This document shows, piece by piece, positions 1 through 64,000 of a stretch of 64,000 nt of DNA. Under the pieces are notes generated by a model, which saw only the letters and a program-made list of their open reading frames with translations, did not search any database and had not been told where the DNA came from. The stretch comes from Naegleria lovaniensis. Lineage: Eukaryota; Heterolobosea; Eutetramitea; Acrasida; Naegleriidae. The DNA is taken from positions 169,789-233,788 of the forward strand of contig NW_025407872.1 in NCBI RefSeq assembly GCF_003324165.1, in the 5' to 3' direction. A program made the position numbers and the translations under genes. Every line of letters begins with the position of its first letter. The first letter of the stretch is position 1.

Positions 1-1086
1 ATCCAGCTCCGATACCTTGAATTTTGTGTGGACTTGGTGAACTACCAGAAATGACGGCTGACTCCTCAGGTTCGAGGACAATGCCATGAACTTTGTGACG
101 TCCAGTCTTCTCTGTTTGTTCATTGAAATATCTCATACATCCAGTGAAAGTACCTGTCCATAACGGGACCCGTCATGTAATAAACAACAGTACAATGTAC
201 ACAATAAGTGAATGCAATAAACAATCAATACCATGTAAATCATATTCACATGTGATGCAGTATCAACTGGTTAAAGCATTTTGTGAAAAGAATCATACAT
301 ACCTCCAGTACCAGCACCACTAATGAAAATATCAACCTTTCCATCAGTATCGTTCCAAATCTCTGGTCCAGTTGTGTTATAGTGAATGAGAGGATTTGCT
401 GGATTGGTGAATTGACCCAAAGTAAATGAATTTGGTGTAGTCGTCAACAATTTTTCAGCAACAGCTACAGCTCCTTTCATTCCTTTTGCGGCTGGGGTGA
501 GAATGACTGTAGCACCAAGAGCTCTCAAAACGACGCGACGTTCGATACTCATCGAGTCAGGCATGACAATGATACACTGTTGATCCATGAATGACAAATG
601 TCATTTTCCATAAATGCAACATGTTGATATGAGAATGGAACTTACCTTGTAACCCTTCGATGCTGCAATGAATGCAATACCAATTCCTGTATTTCCTGAA
701 GTTGGTTCAACAAGAACTGTTTTTCCGGGCTCAATCTTTCCTTCCTTTTCAGCAGTTTCAATCATGGACAAGGCAATACGATCTTTTCAAAATGATCAAA
801 AACGAAAATTTCAATGATGAGATGTTTTTTCAATCATCATTGAATTTCAAACGATATTGAAATGATATTCAAATATTGATATTATCATGATCAAACAAGA
901 ATTTCAAATCATGATGAAAGGAATGATGATCTAAACGAAATACTTACCCTTGACGGAGGCCATTGGTTCCAGAGATTCCAATTTCAGGGCAATCTTGGCT
1001 ACTGCTCCATTCTCCTCGGCTAACTTGTTCAAGTACAACAATGGGGTGTTACCGATCAATTCAGTAATATTATTTGCAATCTTCAT
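1..1086 (-). CDS. Cysteine synthase (O-acetylserine sulfhydrylase), 3' end beyond window
   Basis: PLP enzyme that makes cysteine from O-acetylserine and sulfide. Four exons are visible: 948-1086, 646-782, 303-576 and <1-153, joined by GT-AG introns of 165, 69 and 149 bp with phases that fit. The start ATG is at 1086 and begins [19 protein letters not shown], the family's usual N-terminus. The PLP lysine lies in ASVKDR, whose codon is split by intron 1. The substrate and phosphate loops follow: [12 protein letters not shown], then SGAGTGGTFTG (spliced across intron 3), then [13 protein letters not shown] at the window edge. No transit peptide is seen, so it is probably cytosolic. The C-terminal third lies outside the window. 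A cystathionine beta-synthase is less likely because there is no N-terminal heme region, but a C-terminal CBS extension cannot be excluded. Confidence 0.93.
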
Positions 1087-1311
1087 GTCTTCAGAGAGTG
1101 AGGTAGATGTGTCTTTTTTGTTTTGATTTTATCGAGTTCATCCTCCTCCGAAGCAGTGATGAGGAAGCTTTAATTCTAAGAATCGGTGTTTTGAAGTTCA
1201 AACATGTTGTTCCGCTTTATTTTTCGCCTCAAAAATTACACCTTCGCTCTACAGCAATTCACAATTTTAACTGTGAAAATGGAGTGGGACTATCCAACCA
1301 ATGGTAATCTC

Positions 1312-1644
1312 TCAAGTGTTGACTTGCTTGGTTGAATTTTGCAATACACTGAAAGTATTTAATGTAGTTGCCATTTGGATGAATGTAGTCATTTCATTAG
1401 TGTCAGATATTAAGCGCACGAGAGGGAAAGAAAAAGGGACCGGCAAACGAGCACCAAAAAATACCTCCTCCCATTCATATGTGGCAATTAACACTGTACC
1501 ATCTTTCTCTTTGCAGTATTGGAAGAACACACAGTCTGACGTTCTAACTGGAGAAACTTTATCTTCCAAACGTTCTCCATTGTGAAATCTTGAACTTTGG
1601 ACACGTCCAATTCTCTTTGCCCTTCTCTCCAGGTTTATATTCAT
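1312..1644 (-). CDS. Possible small hypothetical gene (doubtful)
   Basis: An open frame of 110 codons from an ATG at 1644, lying between the cysteine synthase start and the aminotransferase stop. The part around VSPVRTSDCVFFQYC and IATYEWEEV has coding-like composition. The frame stays open for 11 codons upstream of the ATG, back to a TGA, so an upstream exon is possible. It weakly recalls the SPL..(T/S).CV.Y.Y core of GIDE/MUL1-type domains, but this is an impression only. An opposite-strand frame at 1301-1585 covers the same bases and looks less protein-like. It could equally be transcribed spacer. Confidence 0.3.
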   Translation of the reverse strand: MNINLERRAKRIGRVQSSRFHNGERLEDKVSPVRTSDCVFFQYCKEKDGTVLIATYEWEEVFFGARLPVPFSFPLVRLISDTNEMTTFIQMATTLNTFSVLQNSTKQVNT

Positions 1645-1848
1645 GAGGCCCTGGACAAATCTGAAGCCACCGTATCCAGCCGCTCACATTTCTAATTCCA
1701 TCCAAAACAAGGATTTTGTACAACAGTTGAAAACTATGATTCCATTACTAGAAGCGTTGCATAGTATGACTACCTCGATGTTTAAAAGGTTATCAAGATG
1801 TTTACTACATTGTAGACAGTCATCAAGTAATGTTTTTACTAGCAATAC

Positions 1849-3441
1849 TTATTCCTCAGACTTTGAAGGACCTACAGTTGTTGAGGAGCTTTGAGAGGAA
1901 CCAATGGATTGAAGAGCATCATAAAAACCATTCGCAACCATATTCAACTTATCTTCTTCAATAATGAATGGAGGTGTCATGATCACTACTTTATCATTCT
2001 GTGCACAATGATCAGCCAGAATATGACAATGATGTGCCAAGTAATGCTCCACTTTGGTAGATACCTTCTCTTTCAGCATGACACCAATCAAGAGACCCAT
2101 TCCTGACGTTCCTGCAAAGAGAGGACAATCTCGCAATCGTTCTGCCAAAATATTTCTGAACTGGTCACCCATGGCTTTGGCACGTTGAATTAGTTTTTCA
2201 TTTTCAATAATTTCCAAGTTTTTAAGGGCGACCATACAGCACACAGGGTGTCCCGAATATGTATAGTCATGCAAGAAGGTTTCCTCGGATTTGAACACAC
2301 ATTCAAAAATGTTTTTGGAAATGATAATTCCTCCTAATGGAACATAGCCACTGGTGATACCCTTGCCAAATACAATCATGTCTGGCTCAATGTTGAAATT
2401 ACTAATGGCAAACCATTTACCAGTTTTACCAAATCCAGTCATGACCTCATCCACGATGAGTAGAACGCCATACTTGTCACAAATTCTTTTGGCAAGAGGG
2501 AAGAAATCTGGATGAGGTTCGAGAGCACCTCCAGAACCTTGTATTGGTTCAGCAATGAATGCAGCAATGTTATCGGCTCCAACTTGCTTGATTAAATTCT
2601 CCAACTGCTCTGCTACATAATAACCATTATTCGAATGAGATTTGCTCTTCGAGTCAATGACCAAGTCATGTGGAAAGTCAATATTCAAACAACAAGCGTT
2701 TTGAGTTTGTTCCTTGACACTGACTCTTTCCAATCCATATTCTTCTTTCATGGATTCATTAAGGGAAGATGAAATAAATGTCGAGCCATGATAACAATTT
2801 TTAAAGGAGATTATTTTTCGTTTCGAGTTCTTTCCTTGTACTTGCCAATATTTCAAAGCACAATGAATGGCACTTTCGACTGCTTCACTTCCTCCACTGG
2901 TAAAGTAGACCTTGTCCATAGTGGGGCATTCGCTTTTAGCGAGAGAGAGTATCTTTTCAGCACATTGGATCACGCACACATGGGAATAGGACGCAACATT
3001 TAGGGAGAATTCCATTTGCTTCATTTGGTTGGCAGCAACGATTGCTAATTCTTCGCGTCCATGACCTACATGGTTATTATGAAGTCCACCTGGTAATAGT
3101 TGTTGGTGATGAATGAGGGTTAGCATTTCATTTGGAATTACAATTTGTTAATGAATCATATTCAAACACTACTCACCCATCATGTCAATGTACTCAACAT
3201 TATTAACATCCCAATAGGAAGAACCAAATGCTTTTTGGAAAACAACAGAATCTCTTGGGTTTACATAATGTTGATGACCATGAATGACACATTGTCGATC
3301 ACGAGAGATCCAATCCTTATTTGATGTGATATTCTCCTCTTCAGAGGTGACCAAGTTTGATGGACCTTGATCTAAGAGTGGAGGCTTGACTTGCTCTTGG
3401 CAAGGTACATAGGGTGGTTCTTGGAGTTTGTATTCGACCAT
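1849..3441 (-). CDS. Class III PLP-dependent aminotransferase
   Basis: Fold-type I transaminase of the class III group, which includes ornithine, GABA and beta-alanine/AGXT2-type enzymes. Two coding exons, 3177-3441 and 1849-3089, are joined by an 87-bp GT-AG intron that restores the motif DMMGGLHNNHVGHGR. Visible landmarks are FTSGGSEAVESAIHCAL (cofactor phosphate), a glycine-rich stretch before IVDEVMTGFGKTGKWF (the PLP-ring Asp and the class III signature) and FGKGITSGYVPLGG with the Schiff-base lysine. The C-terminus ends in a Ser/Thr-rich tail. The start is uncertain. The exon frame is open to 3515, but its first in-frame ATG is at 3441. A good donor (GTAAGT) near 3555 and an acceptor-like CAATAG near 3516 suggest a 5' UTR intron. 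The amino donor cannot be told from sequence; AGXT2-like is a guess. Confidence 0.88.
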
Positions 3442-3751
3442 TTCAAGTAATTTTTCAAAATAATAATCAGTGTGAAACAAGTCGAATCTTTGTCCATTGA
3501 ATTTCTATTGGACTAGATTGTTAAATGTACAAAAGAGGAGACTTGACATAAAACTTACTTTGAGGATTATTGAATTTTTGTGAAAATTTCTATTTTGGCG
3601 TTTTCCTTAATAAAGACGAGAACAATCTAAAACCAATAACACCAAGATGACCACAGTGAGCTGTCCTCACAGACTGTGGCTTGCATCAAGACTCGGAATG
3701 ATCTCTACATTCGCGCCAACGGCTCTACTGATTTTCAAACTCTAAAAAAAA

Positions 3752-4180
3752 ATGATGAGCCCAACCGACGATGATTTCAAAATCAAGGTGATCCAACACA
3801 CTCCGAGCAAAGGTAAAATTGAACATGTCATGGATGAATATGCTGTGAGTGAGGAGCATACGATCAACAAGGTTCGGGAAGAGAGAAAGACCTTCTTCAT
3901 GCAAATTTCAGTCTCAACTCTGGTGGTCACGGCATCTTTTGTAATGAGTATCTTGTTTCTTGGACTTCATGTTTGGCAACGATGGAATCAACGAAATTCA
4001 AAAAATAGCAAAGAGGATGAAGAAGCATATTTCGCAGCATCTGCAGGATTTTTCGCAGTGTTTTGTGTTTGCATCACTGTGTTCGTATTTTCAGTATTGT
4101 ATTGCTTGGCTAAAACCATATTGATCGTTTTGCTGGCAGAGCATGACCGAACATTGCTTAAGAGAAAGATGGTCAAGTAG
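3752..4180 (+). CDS. Small two-helix membrane protein, unknown function
   Basis: A 142-residue single-exon gene, not recognised. It has a charged N-terminal region of about 50 residues, a hydrophobic segment at about 53-75 (VSTLVVTASFVMSILFLGLH), a Lys/Glu-rich loop, and a second long hydrophobic segment at about 95-130 (FFAVFCVCITVFVFSVLYCL). The tail is basic and ends KRKMVK. The termini should lie on the same side of the membrane. An alternative start is the second Met, one codon later. It shares an upstream region with the divergent aminotransferase and converges with the DUF4116 gene. The opposite-strand frame at 3988-4176 is its shadow. Confidence 0.6.
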   Translation: MMSPTDDDFKIKVIQHTPSKGKIEHVMDEYAVSEEHTINKVREERKTFFMQISVSTLVVTASFVMSILFLGLHVWQRWNQRNSKNSKEDEEAYFAASAGFFAVFCVCITVFVFSVLYCLAKTILIVLLAEHDRTLLKRKMVK

Positions 4181-4323
4181 TTCGTTCATACATCAATAAC
4201 AACAAGATTCCTCTAGTGTTGCATGCTTTTGACAGAGTTGAATTTACACCCGAAGCAGCGATGTGCCAGTAGAAGCCAGTGAGTATGAAAAGTTTCTACA
4301 TGTCGTATCAACATGAAACACCC

Positions 4324-6224
4324 CTACAATCTCTGATTACTGTGTAGATGTGCTAAATAACAACCAACATAACAATGCTCCATTCTTGCCCTAAATAATT
4401 CGTCCCTATAATTGTTGACAAGAACAAATCCGTTTTGTTTCACAGCTTCCAATTCCAGTTCAGGATCAATACTACCTTTCACCCACTTCAAGACACAACC
4501 GTTTCTTTGAATGGCTTCTTTCATAAAAGTCTTGTCTCTTTGAAATGATGTTGGTACAATTGACATGACCTCTGCCGTTACCGCTACGCATTGCAGCATG
4601 AATTCTCGATCCATTTTCATCTCATCAGAAAAATAATCCATCACTCTGATGTTTTTCGTAAGAGCCTTCAATAACAAGTCACGATCTTTTTTAACCTTGT
4701 CAGACATGAGACGCCAAGGGTCGTTTTTACACGGAAGGCAAGTCAAAGCAGCCATTGCGATATCTTGATCTTCTGTAAGTTGTGGGGAAGCAAGCATCAA
4801 GGACCAAGGGTCTTTCATGAAAGCAGTAAGGACCACCTCTTTATCATTTCTCAATGTTTTGGAGGCAGTCTGAAGCATGAAAGGCCTTCGTTTCACTACT
4901 TCCAATACCATGTCCTTATCATGATTCCAATATTGATGGGCGTCCCAAAAATTACCGACATCTATTTCAATAGCTTTCCAAATGAATTCCTGTCATTCAA
5001 GAGAGCTTGAGAAGCATATTTCAGAGGATGATCATATTTTGCACGAATCATGCGCCAGCAAATTTCTTTCTCACACCATGTCAAGTCAGAGATGTCCATA
5101 GTGTTGTTGTTGTTAAGAGCAGTGTTGAGATGGGCAATGGCAGTTAAAGCAATTTCTGGATCTTTTTTCAGCTCATGACAAGCATACAAAAATGCAGAGT
5201 AGTGACTTTTCACTGCGTAAAGTACAACTTCTCGATCCCTACGTAGTTCATCAGATGCATTATTTAAATACTTTCCATGATGCTTCATAACCTCCAAAAC
5301 AATTTCTCTATCATTTCTGAAATGTGTAAAATCGACAATTTGTCCTTGTTGAGCTACTTTCAAAATAATATCCCGATCATTGTACAATTCTCTATCAACC
5401 CATTTAAACAAAGCACCGTGGTTCAATGCAAATAAAACAGTTTCTTTGTTTCTTTTCACATTTCTAGAAGCATATTCAAAGGCATTTCCATTTTGTCGCA
5501 CTGCTGCTTTTACAGTTCCAAAATCTTGTTTAAATTTTTCTGTTGCATATTGTAAAGCCATTCCATCTTGCTTGAGAATCTTTAAAACCTCTATTCTTTG
5601 TTGTTTATCAGAAGGATTTGTATATTGTTTCAATACTTCTTCTAGAGAATCGTTTGTTTTCGGTAGTACATTCTCTTTGGGTGCATATTCTCTGTCGTTA
5701 TCTACCTTAGTACATTCATTGAGTGCTGCTCTTTGATCCGTCGACGATAAAGCCATTATCAAGTCTTGGTATTGGGTAGATTCTTTCGGAAGAAATGCTT
5801 GTAAATGCTGTACAAACAGCTCCCGATTGTTTCTGTTGCAGAGTTGAACATTTTTTTCATCATGACAAGCTTTGCGATAAGCCTCCATGATCACTTGAGC
5901 ATCTTTTTGCAATTCATGCGAGCCGTATTGCAGTCCATAGCCATGACGTTCCACGAATTCCATCATGAATAATTTGTCATTCATGAATTCAACTGGAAGA
6001 AACATGTTAGAGAGTGCATTTGTAAAAATAGCAAGTTCGGAGGGATGGTAATGGACTGGGCCGTTGGTCAGGATGGCGTGTCGATATTCGAGATATTTGA
6101 TCATTCCTTGTTGTTGCATTTGGAATTTTCGTTTCAGTAAGCTTTCATAGCGGAAGTGTACATGAGGATGGAAGCTTGGGTCGAAATCAATGAGAATCAG
6201 AGAGGGAGAAGGTTCTTCTTGCAT
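4324..6224 (-). CDS. DUF4116 repeat protein, with one-base frameshift
   Basis: Tandem DUF4116 repeats of about 48 residues, a family greatly expanded in Naegleria. Units share the pattern L..DREVVL.AVK..G..L..AS; examples are LRRDREVVLYAVKSHYSAF and LKKDPEIALTAIAHL. The start at 6224 (MQEEPSPSLILIDFD) is followed by a unique region of about 80 residues. Between 4985 and 4992 the frame changes: the upstream frame runs NDRNSFGKLLK and stops, while the frame displaced by one base continues FIWKAIEID, VGNFWDAHQYW and DKDMVLEVVKRR. A missing base inside AGGAATTC would restore the consensus NDREF. No GT-AG intron fits. Molecular function is unknown; the repeats suggest a helical solenoid. About 633 residues if joined. 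Confidence 0.8.
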
Positions 6225-59002: not shown

Positions 59003-60311
59003 TCTGGAACTGCTGATTTTTTTCCTTGTTTAAATTGAATTTTCACGATTTATGTCCCTCGAAAAAAAAAAATTTCTGTAGTGTGAACTTGAGTCTTCAA
59101 TTTCAGTTTTGAGCCATGTCATCATCCCAGTCGATTAAAATGTTTTATTCATCAAAAAATGTGTGAAGTTTTGGAGATCAAACACCAATTACCTCCATTC
59201 CACTCTTTGAAATCATATGAATACAATGGACAGCAATACTTTGCAGCAGATGAAATTATTGATTCTTTTTTTGTTGGAAAAAACGAAAAAACATCAAGAT
59301 TACTTCTCACCATTAAAGATGGCAAAGATACACTCAATCATCAGCAGCAACAGGCTATCGGATTGCCATCTCCCTTCCGCAATGGAGTCATCATCACGAA
59401 TTTGGTAGCTTTATTACAAACAATTCTTAAATTATCTACAGGCAAAAAAGATCAAGAAAAACTAATACGCCACATATTCACCACTTTTTCAAAAGAAACG
59501 AGCTTGGTTGATGTTATGGATTTTGATAACGAGATCGATAGTGAAATATGGAATGATTGTGATCAATGTTATAGTAATTGTGAAGACAACAACTTAATCA
59601 ACGAAGCCGCTCTTTATTTTGATGACGTAGACAATGACGAAACAGAAGAAAACGATGAAGAATTTAGTGATGATTTATTTCAGTTCACAAATTTCTCCTC
59701 AATAAGTGAACAAAATCAAACCGATCAAAGTGAAGATAACACCATCAATACCATCTTGAATTTAATCTCTGAAAATGAAATGAACACGCAACATCAACCA
59801 CCAATTTCAGATTTTCCATCTCCACCAAGCCAGGACCAGACTCAACAATTCAATCCATCTCAAAACACTCACCCACACAGCCCGCAATTAAACGTTTGTG
59901 CATACTAATGAGCTATTTCATCAACAACTCTCTCAACATTGGCTTTGGCATTACTTGAATACTCATTTACACTCTCATGGGAATGGATTGACTAATAATT
60001 CACAACAACTTACAAATGAACATCAACAACATTCGCATCCTATTTTCACAAACCATGCTTGTTCACATCATCCTATATCAAGCAATAAAGATACCAATAC
60101 CGTCAACATGAAATTTTGGGAATGTTCACATTGTGGATGTCATGATATCCAAGCACATGACCATAAATATTCAAGTATGCAGTTAGGACAAGATTCTTTT
60201 TCTCAAATACTGATACCATTTCTCTAGCTCGATCTTTGTTATTGCGAGTAAATGTTAGGGACTCTTGGACACAATATTCACGCCTGGTTTGAAACATTCT
60301 TGCAAACAAAA

Positions 60312-60319
60312 GAAGGCAT
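60312..60319 (+). repeat. Target-site duplication, left copy
   Basis: GAAGGCAT, identical to 61645-61652 on the other side of the element. It lies within the host reading frame (codons Glu-Gly-Ile). Confidence 0.85.
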
Positions 60320-61644
60320 GAGGGCCCTTTCAAACCTGCAGCCACAGCAAACAGCCATTCAGCCAGGATAGTCCTCGCTGCCGAAATTATTTTCAGATGC
60401 AATCAACAGAATCCTTTGGCATCCGGTTGAAACAGGATTTTTGCGGCTGAGATAGGATTTCGATCAGGTGATCAGTTTATTTTGCTTACTAAAAAACCGT
60501 TCTCCACAATGACGGTTCTTGGAAACGAAGTAAATTCCTCATAATATTGTGTAAAATCTTTAGAAACGTCTATCAATCTGCAATCTGCTTCATTCACAAC
60601 AGTCTGCAAGCATGGCAAAAGTACGACATGCTCTTTCAAATTCACCAATAACAATATAATTAATATGTTCTGGTGATGGGAAGCAACAATAATACTCATA
60701 TGGTAATCTTGTGGATTGATCTTTCTCTTTGTTGAATTGTAAGCCAACAATTAAGGCACTTAAAAAATTATTGAGAGCATTCAAGAAATTTTCAGCGTTC
60801 AGATTGGTGTTGGAGCCACAATGTTGTCAAGCCACTCCATAAAAATTCTCGATCATATATTCTTGCAGTTGAAAAGGCAAAAATACTCTGTTGTTGGGTG
60901 ATGATTGAACTCTATACATTGTCAAACACAAACCGATCATTAATAACAACAATAATGGATAATGACAATTTATCTACCTTGAAGTCGAACTATAAATTGA
61001 CTCATCATCATCTTCGATGTCAGTATTGTTATGATTTGTTTCTTTTTCTTTGAGGAAGATGCGAGCGATTCCACAAAGCTCTCTTGTTATGAACATTTGT
61101 TTGACATCATCTTCAGTCATAATCTTGTTTTTACGTGAAATCTTTGGTTTGGATTATCATTTTCGGGTTGCATTCGGAAAGAAATCACTGCTTCACATGA
61201 AGTGCAAATGACATGATCTCTTCATCATCAAATAAATTTAGAACAGCAATGCTTCTGATAGCATTTTCTTCAAAAATACGAATTACTGAATTGATGTCTG
61301 ATGGTGTGAATTTCATATCGGTAAGATAGTCATAGAGAAGATGAAGATCAGAATTCGTTTCGTGGATGTACGTTGATGTGGTTGTCTAGCTCCACATTTG
61401 AATTCATTTCGGTCAAGGATAACATGCCAAAGCTTGTTCGGAATTGTTGTTGTTGTTGCTGTTGTTGTTTTGCATTTTTATTGTTAAAAATTTTATTCGT
61501 TTTAAAGCCAAAAACAACCGCCAAAATCCATAAACATCCAGATTCTGGAGGATTCTGGATTTCCACAAAGTTTGGGAAGTCAGCAGGAGCTGGCAGCCGT
61601 CCTTTTCGGCTGTTTGCTGCGGCTGCAGGTTTGAAAGGGCCCTC
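60320..61644. mobile_element. Non-autonomous hAT-like DNA transposon, 1,325 bp
   Basis: It has 37-bp terminal inverted repeats with one mismatch (ends GAGGGCCCTTTCAAACCTGC), left 60320-60356 and right 61608-61644. The 8-bp target duplication GAAGGCAT lies at 60312-60319 and 61645-61652. Eight-bp duplications and GGG-bearing ends are typical of the hAT superfamily; assignment beyond that is open. The subterminal 100 bp are also loosely similar in inverted orientation. There is no transposase. Inside are broken minus-strand coding fragments and a (GTT)n run near 61444-61470. Confidence 0.85.
60472..61350 (-). pseudogene. Decayed gene fragments inside the transposon
   Basis: Reading the minus strand from about 61350: a SAM-domain-like piece (FTPSDINSVIRIFEENAIRS, then IAVLNLFDDEEIMSF), a frame change, CTSCEAVISFRMQPENDNPN, then KIMTEDDVKQMFITRELCGI with an acidic end, a donor-like GTAGAT, a gap, and a last piece, FLSALIVGLQFNKEKDQSTR to VIVENGFLVSKIN at 60472, itself broken by one frame change near 60600. 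Several stops and shifts make it non-coding now. It may be a captured cellular gene or a relic of the element's own gene; I do not recognise a transposase. Confidence 0.45.
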
Positions 61645-61652
61645 GAAGGCAT
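61645..61652 (+). repeat. Target-site duplication, right copy
   Basis: GAAGGCAT, immediately after the right inverted repeat; the host frame resumes from here. Confidence 0.85.
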
Positions 61653-63415
61653 TCAAAAAACAATTAATATTATAGAAAAAAACTTGAAAGAAAATATTCG
61701 GTACAAACAACTGAAACAATATCTTATCGAAAAAAGAGATCCTACAATAGTTCAGTATTGGAGAGACAATAATTTAATTTCTGATAATACTTATCACAAC
61801 CTTCGAAAAGAAGTTTCCTTAATGAAGGAGTTGCCTTGTAAGAAAGAAATGAGTAATTTAAAAAAACAATTGAATGAGAGAGTGGAAGAAATATTCAAAT
61901 TAAGATGCCCAAGTGCTGAATTCATTGGTCACATCATAGATTTAGATGAAGCTATTTATTATATTCTAAAGTTATATCGATCTCTAGGAGGAAAACTTAA
62001 AAAGAAAATATTTTTCAAAATTTCTGTGGATGGACGTGAAATTAACAAAGTGAAACAAGTAGCCGTTGCATTAGTTCCTCTTAATTTAAGAGATGTGTTT
62101 CCTTCTCAAGCTGTATCCTCTGTCTTTTATATTGGATTATTTCAAATGTCTGAAACAAAAGAGAGTATTAAGGAAACCATTGGAACATTGACAGACGAAA
62201 TCAAAACTGTGTCACAAAAAACATATTTTGAAAAATCTGAGGTTCATTTGTTCTATGTTTCAGACATGCACAATGTTGGATTTACATTTGAATTTGATAT
62301 TTGTCCATACTGCATGGCAAAAACTGTTGAAGAATTTGGAGCAAACAATCGAACAACCCTTGGAGGTTCCTTGCCATTCAGTCCTAAAGATTTAATTATG
62401 TGTGCTCTTCATGTTAAACAGCGATTAGTTGAAAATACAATTGCTTATATGGCTTCAAGTGGGCAATACAATAATACCATATTGCAGAATTTGCAAAAAT
62501 TAAAAGGATTAGAGCATTTTAATTGGAGAGAGTTGAAACAACGAGTGACTGAATATGGTATTTCACAAACGTCAGAAAGAGTTACTGCCAAATCGAGCAT
62601 GCTGTCTGGGGATCAATGCAACACAATTTTAAGTAATGTTGAAGTGATAGTGAATGACATCGAACAGCACACTAAGGAGAAATATTTGAATATTTTGAAA
62701 TTATTAAGGAATATTATAATTATCGTTGAGGCTAAACAAGATGATCCCAATACCAAACAAATACTTACACCAGACAGAATCTTTAAATTGGACAAGATGA
62801 TCATGGAGTTTTTATGTGCTTGTTATCGAATATGGAGCAAAGGTATCAAAGCTCATTATTTTCATTTTCTTACACATCTTCCATCTATGATGACAGAATT
62901 GCTCGACGATGACTTGTCCTTATCTATTTTAAGTAATCAAGGGTTCGAACGTTCTCATTTGTTTCACCATGCCGTGTTTAATAGAGTGATTAATAACGGT
63001 GGTGGTCGTCACAAAATTCATGTAACCAAACAATTGCTGTTATGGCAATGGCGAAAAGTCCTGACTGCGATTGATATAGGAGAGAAATTTGGAAGTACTT
63101 ATTGGAATGAAAAACGGCTCAAACAAATTTATTCATGGAATTCAATTCACCTCAAAGAAGCACCTCAAGAATTACACGATTTGTATTACGATTTGGATGA
63201 GTCGAATGTGGATCTTGCTACTTTGCAGCAAACTATTTCTACAAGCTTTCAAGAACAAGAGCAACAATCACAAAACACAGAAAAACAATCAGAGAAAACG
63301 ACAACCAAGCGAAAACAAGCAAAGAATACACGACAAAGCGACCAGGCGACCAGTTTTAGTGGAACAATGAGTACACAAGTTTCTCAAAAGAAACGAAAAT
63401 TTTAATCGAAAATTT

Positions 63416-63954
63416 TCAAAAGCTCTCAATCCAATATTTTCCATCCTTCGCTTGAACCCAATGACACAAGTAGGCATAATATAATTCCAATCTGGTGTCG
63501 TAAGAGATCACCAACTTTGATACAATGCAACGGTAAGCAATATTGTCGAAATCTTCACTTAAATCAACTTGGAATCTTTTTCTAAGATTATCACCAACGT
63601 TCTTTTGATTTACGGTCATATAATTTTTGGCCATTCACCATCTCCAAAGGAAGGAAAATTTGGATATTCAAATTCATATATTATGTGACGATTGATTTCG
63701 GTGTCTCCTGTTCGATTGATCCAAGGAGAATATTGTTCTATTCTTGTGTACATATGTGGTTTCATTGTACGACACATATACATATCAAAGGTTTGTTCCT
63801 CACACTCACCAACTGGTAAACGACATCTTGCTTGTCCGTTGCATGGTGAATTAAAATCCCACAGAAAGTTTACGAGCTTCATTTCCATTCTAGATGCTTG
63901 TTTGTGATGGTCTTCATGTTCATAGTTGATGATGGACAAAGGACTTGGGTGCAT
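63416..63954 (-). CDS. Unrecognised protein, frame-shifted, possibly partial
   Basis: From an ATG at 63954 (MHPSPLSIINYEHEDHH) the frame runs to a TGA near 63616 after FPSFGDGEWPKII. The frame displaced by one base continues from MAKNYMTVNQKNVGDNLRK (63634) to CHWVQAKDGKYWIESF. Inserting one A in the GAATGG context would join them to about 177 residues, with the motif DGEMAKNYMTV. The N-terminal half has four Cys (SPCNGQARCRLPVGECEEQ, MYMCRTM). No family is recognised. A stop lies upstream of the ATG in the same frame, so this may be the true start, but an exon beyond 64000 is possible. It converges with the split gene, 11 bp apart. Confidence 0.5.
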
Positions 63955-64000
63955 ATTTATGGGTACTCATCGACCTTCACAAAGGCCTCCAATGGATGGC

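Follow-up and report, generated by a model that had tools for sequence, protein, structure and literature searches.

P elements are best known from animals, and interrupted gap repair is the usual origin of their internal deletions. To our knowledge, the THAP finger is a feature of the animal members and not of the superfamily as a whole. Two accounts of the Drosophila P transposase (DmTNP) place its catalytic residues at D230, D303, D339 and E531 (PMC7776569, PMC8230255), and one of them describes internal inverted repeats in Drosophila P elements too (PMC7776569).

The locus compared here lies in a 64,000-nt stretch of Naegleria lovaniensis DNA (the window, C51:169789-233788), which has a GC content of 33-39% in 2-kb windows; the genome searched comprises 30,690,286 bases in 97 contigs, to which the C-numbers refer. 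A 1,325-bp element occupies positions 60320-61644 of the window and is flanked on both sides by the 8-bp sequence GAAGGCAT. The original prediction had described a hAT-like transposon inserted into a coding exon at 60312-61652, coordinates that re-reading of the ends and the duplication in the window confirmed as exact, and the perfect 8-bp duplications and 37-bp terminal inverted repeats (TIRs) that it had reported were likewise borne out, with 36 of the 37 TIR positions matching. Our verdict is that a defective P-like transposon inserted here recently, nested within another repeat, and we hold it very likely that the insert belongs to a P-like cut-and-paste family (P/THAP9 superfamily) as a non-autonomous copy with internal deletions. 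The features of the locus are as follows:

59159..60319, plus strand: left part of the target gene, with an 11-bp deletion near 59892 that shifts the frame and a 3-bp deletion upstream
60198..60252, no strand: exact inversion of 55 bp when compared with the C20 copy, its right edge 59 bp short of the duplication
60312..60319, no strand: left target site duplication GAAGGCAT, present as a single copy at the C20 empty sites
60320..61644, minus strand (that of the transposase remnants): very likely a non-autonomous P-like transposon, 1,325 bp
60320..60356, plus strand: left TIR, 37 nt, starting GAGGGCCCTTTC
60407..60449, plus strand: left arm of the subterminal inverted repeat, in register with the right arm and occupying nt 88-130 counted from the element end
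60472..60601, minus strand: transposase frame, remnant of its 3' end (corresponds to nt 153-282 in the 3,671-bp relative)
60587..60943, minus strand: transposase remnant with a stop in its frame, covering the region of the third catalytic residue (nt 919-1274 in the 3,671-bp relative)
60940..61077, minus strand: remnant of the sequence surrounding the candidate intron (nt 2596-2751 in the 3,671-bp relative)
61067..61644, minus strand: remnant of the 5' end together with the first coding part (nt 3078-3671 in the 3,671-bp relative)
61515..61557, minus strand: right subterminal inverted repeat
61608..61644, minus strand: right TIR, 37 nt, one mismatch relative to the left
61645..61652, no strand: right target site duplication GAAGGCAT
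61645..63405, plus strand: target gene, right-hand part, 586 codons followed by a stop
63416..63966, minus strand: convergent second frame of the target repeat, split in the window; the C20 copy has it open, at 252 aa

In the 3,671-bp relative, the subterminal inverted repeats match in register at 31 of 43 positions (72%), compared with 25 for the best of 2,000 shuffles, and both arms could also be read in the window element. We regard these repeats at nt 88-130 as candidate transposase sites.

C20 holds two further, nearly identical copies of the target gene. One of these (L071) carries a single GAAGGCAT and no insert, reading FETFLQTKEGIQKTINIIEK within an unbroken 982-aa frame, and the second is 100% identical to it from query position 1058 to 5001, which spans the site. 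A 65% relative (L073) is uninterrupted in the region of the site, and three further 65% relatives have open 971-aa frames. It had been claimed that removal of the element and one duplication joins a left exon to a right exon in frame. The join holds, as borne out by the natural uninserted copies on C20 and not by joining the flanks in the window, while the two exons do not: the target is one open frame in the C20 copy, and the "left" and "right" exons are therefore halves of a single exon. The C20 copies thus supply, from within the genome, the empty site that the original prediction had proposed to look for, and the empty sites together with the duplications across the family support the claim that a DNA transposon inserted after the target gene had formed.

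The same copies also date the insertion event. To the left of the inversion, the window differs from the C20 target by 3 substitutions in 1,078 columns (14 of them gaps), one of which lies at the junction with a 222-bp repeat and may not count, and the right part differs by 5 substitutions in 2,358 columns, with 2 gaps. The window thus shows at most 8 substitutions relative to the empty-site copy in about 3,420 aligned bases, and, should the empty copy represent the ancestral state, the insertion postdates a divergence of at most 0.23%. Precise excision could also account for the empty site on C20, though only if one clean duplication stayed behind. The element had been called young from its near-identical TIRs; its youth is supported by the empty-site divergence and by an identical pair of 1,985-bp members elsewhere in the genome, and the TIR clock is not, because TIRs are kept in all copies and their identity is a poor clock.

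The "gene" that was hit is no ordinary gene: it is itself a repeated, multi-copy, transposon-like one. Its relatives comprise the near-identical copies, the 65% class and about 14 at 24-26%, nine with 1,044-aa frames. L071 and L073 also have a second frame, convergent with the first and 252 or 270 aa long, and a TIR-like end, CATAGCAAGAC, is common to the target repeat and to a 221-222-bp repeat. Since the target is multi-copy and has both a TIR-like end and a second frame, the locus most likely represents one transposon inside a second mobile element. As the target is repeated and its copy in the window is broken elsewhere too, the insertion need not have struck a healthy host gene. The outermost left bases of the target repeat are absent from the window copy. 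No Pfam family matched the 982-aa and 252-aa frames of the target, and a phmmer comparison of the target protein with solved structures returned three weak matches (E 0.082 to 2.7), which we took as chance. No relatives of the target protein or of the protein of the 3,671-bp relative (C67) were found among viral contigs, and a PHROGs search gave two weak, unspecific matches.

Several further observations were made around the target. The 55-bp inversion at 60198-60252 may be a separate lesion or may be linked to the insertion. The 221-222-bp repeat (L071 minus strand 1057-1280; L077-L085) has the ends CATAGCAAGAC/GTCTTGCTATG, with no duplication seen at 9 fetched copies. Contig C51 ends inside the target repeat (window position 64000), and the 174 bases that follow in the C20 copy are matched by C30:1-174, so that C51 and C30 may be neighbours or may share the repeat.

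Other copies of the TIR, for which the original prediction had proposed a search, are present in the genome, and the family occupies a minimum of 36-37 places (126 matching pieces, grouped by hand). A perfect 8-bp duplication was present in 16 of the 18 fetched members with both ends, in 15 different sequences, and absent from two, on C49 and C2; this count omits the L039 row, where the ends belong to two neighbouring elements. With perfect duplications in 16 of 18 two-ended members, the duplication at the window element is not due to chance. Members on C27 and C77 have one shared duplication and common flanks (99.9% over 4,069 bp) and are therefore copies of one insertion. The 1,985-bp members on C5 and C11 are 100% identical and occupy sites with different duplications, which, read from the sequences, is recent movement.

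Two other loci of the family drew our attention. The same 1,677-bp element (99.9% over 1,681 bp) is found on C49 (L006) and C55 (L005) with flanks that differ and without a duplication on C49, a case of rearrangement, one-end deletion or an assembly join. At C26:511800-530500 (L034 and L035), we observed an array of long frames with tandem repeats of about 25 aa, of the type VVLTAVxQNGxxLxFASxELKNDRE, and transposon fragments sit between these repeat frames.

An intact relative with a transposase had also been anticipated, and one with long transposase frames is present in the same genome, at C67:44093-47763 (3,671 bp, identical TIRs, duplication TATATTGC). Its minus strand holds frames of 290 and 824 aa, and seven GT-AG pairs would leave these frames joined and open; of these, we favour a 64-nt intron running from GTAGAT to TTATAG, which would give a predicted protein of 1,095 aa. 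The window element aligns with this relative in four blocks (nt 1-282, 919-1274, 2596-2751 and 3078-3671), and where two blocks meet they share 4 to 15 nt, as microhomology would give. By these block coordinates, the window element is without the candidate catalytic residues D152, D258 and D304, and retains the stretch around E483 in a frame with a stop. Having neither the first two catalytic aspartates nor the D-x-x-H motif, it is mobile only in trans. A derivative on C56 has all three internal deletions of the window copy, to which it is 99.3% identical over 1,327 columns; the two are unlinked and lie at different sites with different duplications. Since one deletion derivative occupies two sites, it must have been mobilised after it formed, by transposase from elsewhere. 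The deletions themselves probably arose from interrupted gap repair.

The hAT-like label of the original prediction was not supported, as the evidence on the transposase, drawn from Pfam scans of the relatives' frames (taking E up to 10), points to P. In the 568-aa frame of the C2 relative, TNP-like_RNaseH_N (E 0.074, residues 142-176) and TNP-like_RNaseH_C (E 0.055, residues 482-505), each below its curated cut-off, were the only Pfam families at E <=10, and they lie in P transposase order, covering D152 and E483. The C5 relative matched TNP-like_RNaseH_C alone (E 0.021, below the curated cut-off), and no Pfam family at E <=10 was found for the 824-aa C67 frame or for a 78-aa fragment from the window. 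When the genome was scanned with PF21789, the best three of six matches (E 0.18) were the family copies on C2, C5 and C11, with one of 14 control genomes matched, below the cut-off. A scan with PF21787 returned 15 places, all of another family and none of the window element's, and one with PF21788 (GTP-binding domain) returned a single place outside the window element's family.

The candidate catalytic residues, picked by eye, are D152, D258, D304 (with H three residues on, D-x-x-H) and E483, with 178 residues between the last two. They correspond in order to D230, D303, D339 and E531 of the Drosophila P transposase (ENFYGVARQYCG vs. EHFFGSMRSRGG). In Smith-Waterman comparisons of the C67 frame, 41 of 300 shuffles reached the score obtained with the Drosophila P transposase and 160 of 300 that obtained with a second P-like frame (L075), and phmmer found nothing among solved structures for the C67 frame or the C2 relative. 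No THAP family was listed for the relatives' frames, and the 290-aa first frame of C67 contains one cysteine, which makes a THAP zinc finger unlikely; we word the family as "P-like" because the finger is probably absent here and is taken as a feature of animal members. Each of these pieces is weak, and it is their joint pattern that makes P the best reading. Separately, the C67 frame scored 107 against the 982-aa target protein (shuffle mean 71.6; 1 of 300 shuffles reached it), which may reflect shared low complexity or a distant kinship of two transposases.

The first reading of this locus supposed a hAT element, with a hAT transposase acting in trans to make the 8-bp duplication. Duplications of 8 bp and short inverted repeats fit that account without being specific to it, and since such duplications are common to hAT, P and Merlin, they do not separate the three. 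We consider a hAT element quite improbable, given that the Pfam scans listed no hAT family for the relatives' frames, that P models are the ones that came up in them, and that the region of the E483 motif is presumably unlike the hAT C-terminal domain. The hAT dimer domain (PF05699) also matched nothing in the genome, a weak negative because none of the 14 controls matched either. It is unlikely, too, that the element belongs to another superfamily with 8-bp duplications (Merlin, KDZ), or to a new one near P within the D-D-[C/D]xxH-E transposases: the weak P matches and the absent THAP finger would suit such an assignment, and the two P domains matched in order in the C2 relative speak against it. 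Merlin transposases are much shorter, and the scans of relatives listed neither Merlin nor KDZ and no IS1595-type DDE family. Merlin TIRs begin 5'-GG (PMC8101967), whereas the TIR of this family begins GAGGG.

We give almost no credence to the view that no transposition took place and that the insert is instead intronic, a spacer or an artefact of assembly. The contig stops a short way to the right of the target (window position 64000) and C30:1-174 continues the repeat, so the region is repeat-rich, and an odd 55-bp inversion lies beside the insert; weighing against an artefact are the exact 8-bp duplications in 16 of 18 members, the two natural empty sites and the uninterrupted 65% relatives. 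For the preferred P-like transposon, a DDE transposase from another copy would have bound the element ends, excised the element and inserted it, with an 8-bp stagger, into one of the copies of the repeated transposon-like gene, and gap filling at the staggered site would then have produced the GAAGGCAT duplication. The window copy, its own catalytic aspartates lost, would have been mobilised only in trans, with internal deletions probably formed by interrupted gap repair.

A second P-like transposon was observed at C12:635900-640300 (L075, 645-4055), with inverted ends that start CAGGGAGGGTGAGCCA and an 8-bp duplication, TCTGTGTT. It holds one 1,038-aa frame with a weak match to the P RNase H domain (Pfam E 0.0034) and, at the C-terminus, a weak exonuclease match (RNase_T, E 0.0037; PolC exonuclease 2p1j, E 0.016). 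PF21787 lists 15 places for its family in the genome, of which L075 is the only one read.

A defective DNA transposon nested within another repeat is a textbook case; the value here comes from the natural empty sites, which date the event, and from the corrected family, which lends some taxonomic interest to an otherwise ordinary nested insertion. Tentatively, and with some doubt, we suggest that a THAP-less, deeply branching P lineage exists beside a P-like family fused to a DEDD-type exonuclease in this heterolobosean genome. If this is true, P would be an ancient eukaryotic superfamily that either predates the THAP finger or does without it, and P-type transposition could couple to an exonuclease. 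As P elements are known mainly from animals, a P-like family in this genome, apparently without the finger, would widen the range of the superfamily. A literature search returned no report of P elements in Naegleria, which leaves their absence there unproven.

Compared with known systems, hAT elements share the 8-bp duplications with this family and differ in that no hAT domain was listed here. From Drosophila P elements, the family differs in its TIR, which is 37 bp and of another sequence (31 bp in Drosophila; PMC7776569), in a D-to-D distance of 106 vs. 73, in having one cysteine in the N-terminal part, where a THAP finger is unlikely, and in the GTP-binding domain model, which is without a match in the family. 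It resembles them in its 8-bp duplications, in its short TIRs with subterminal inverted repeats, in its internally deleted copies mobilised in trans, and in the order of its RNase H motifs, the E being preceded by a long insert (PMC7776569, PMC8230255). The zebrafish P-like/THAP9 elements differ in their shorter TIRs (13 bp) and THAP domain, with very low sequence similarity, and they resemble the present family in having multiple internally deleted copies with 8-bp duplications (PMC7776569).
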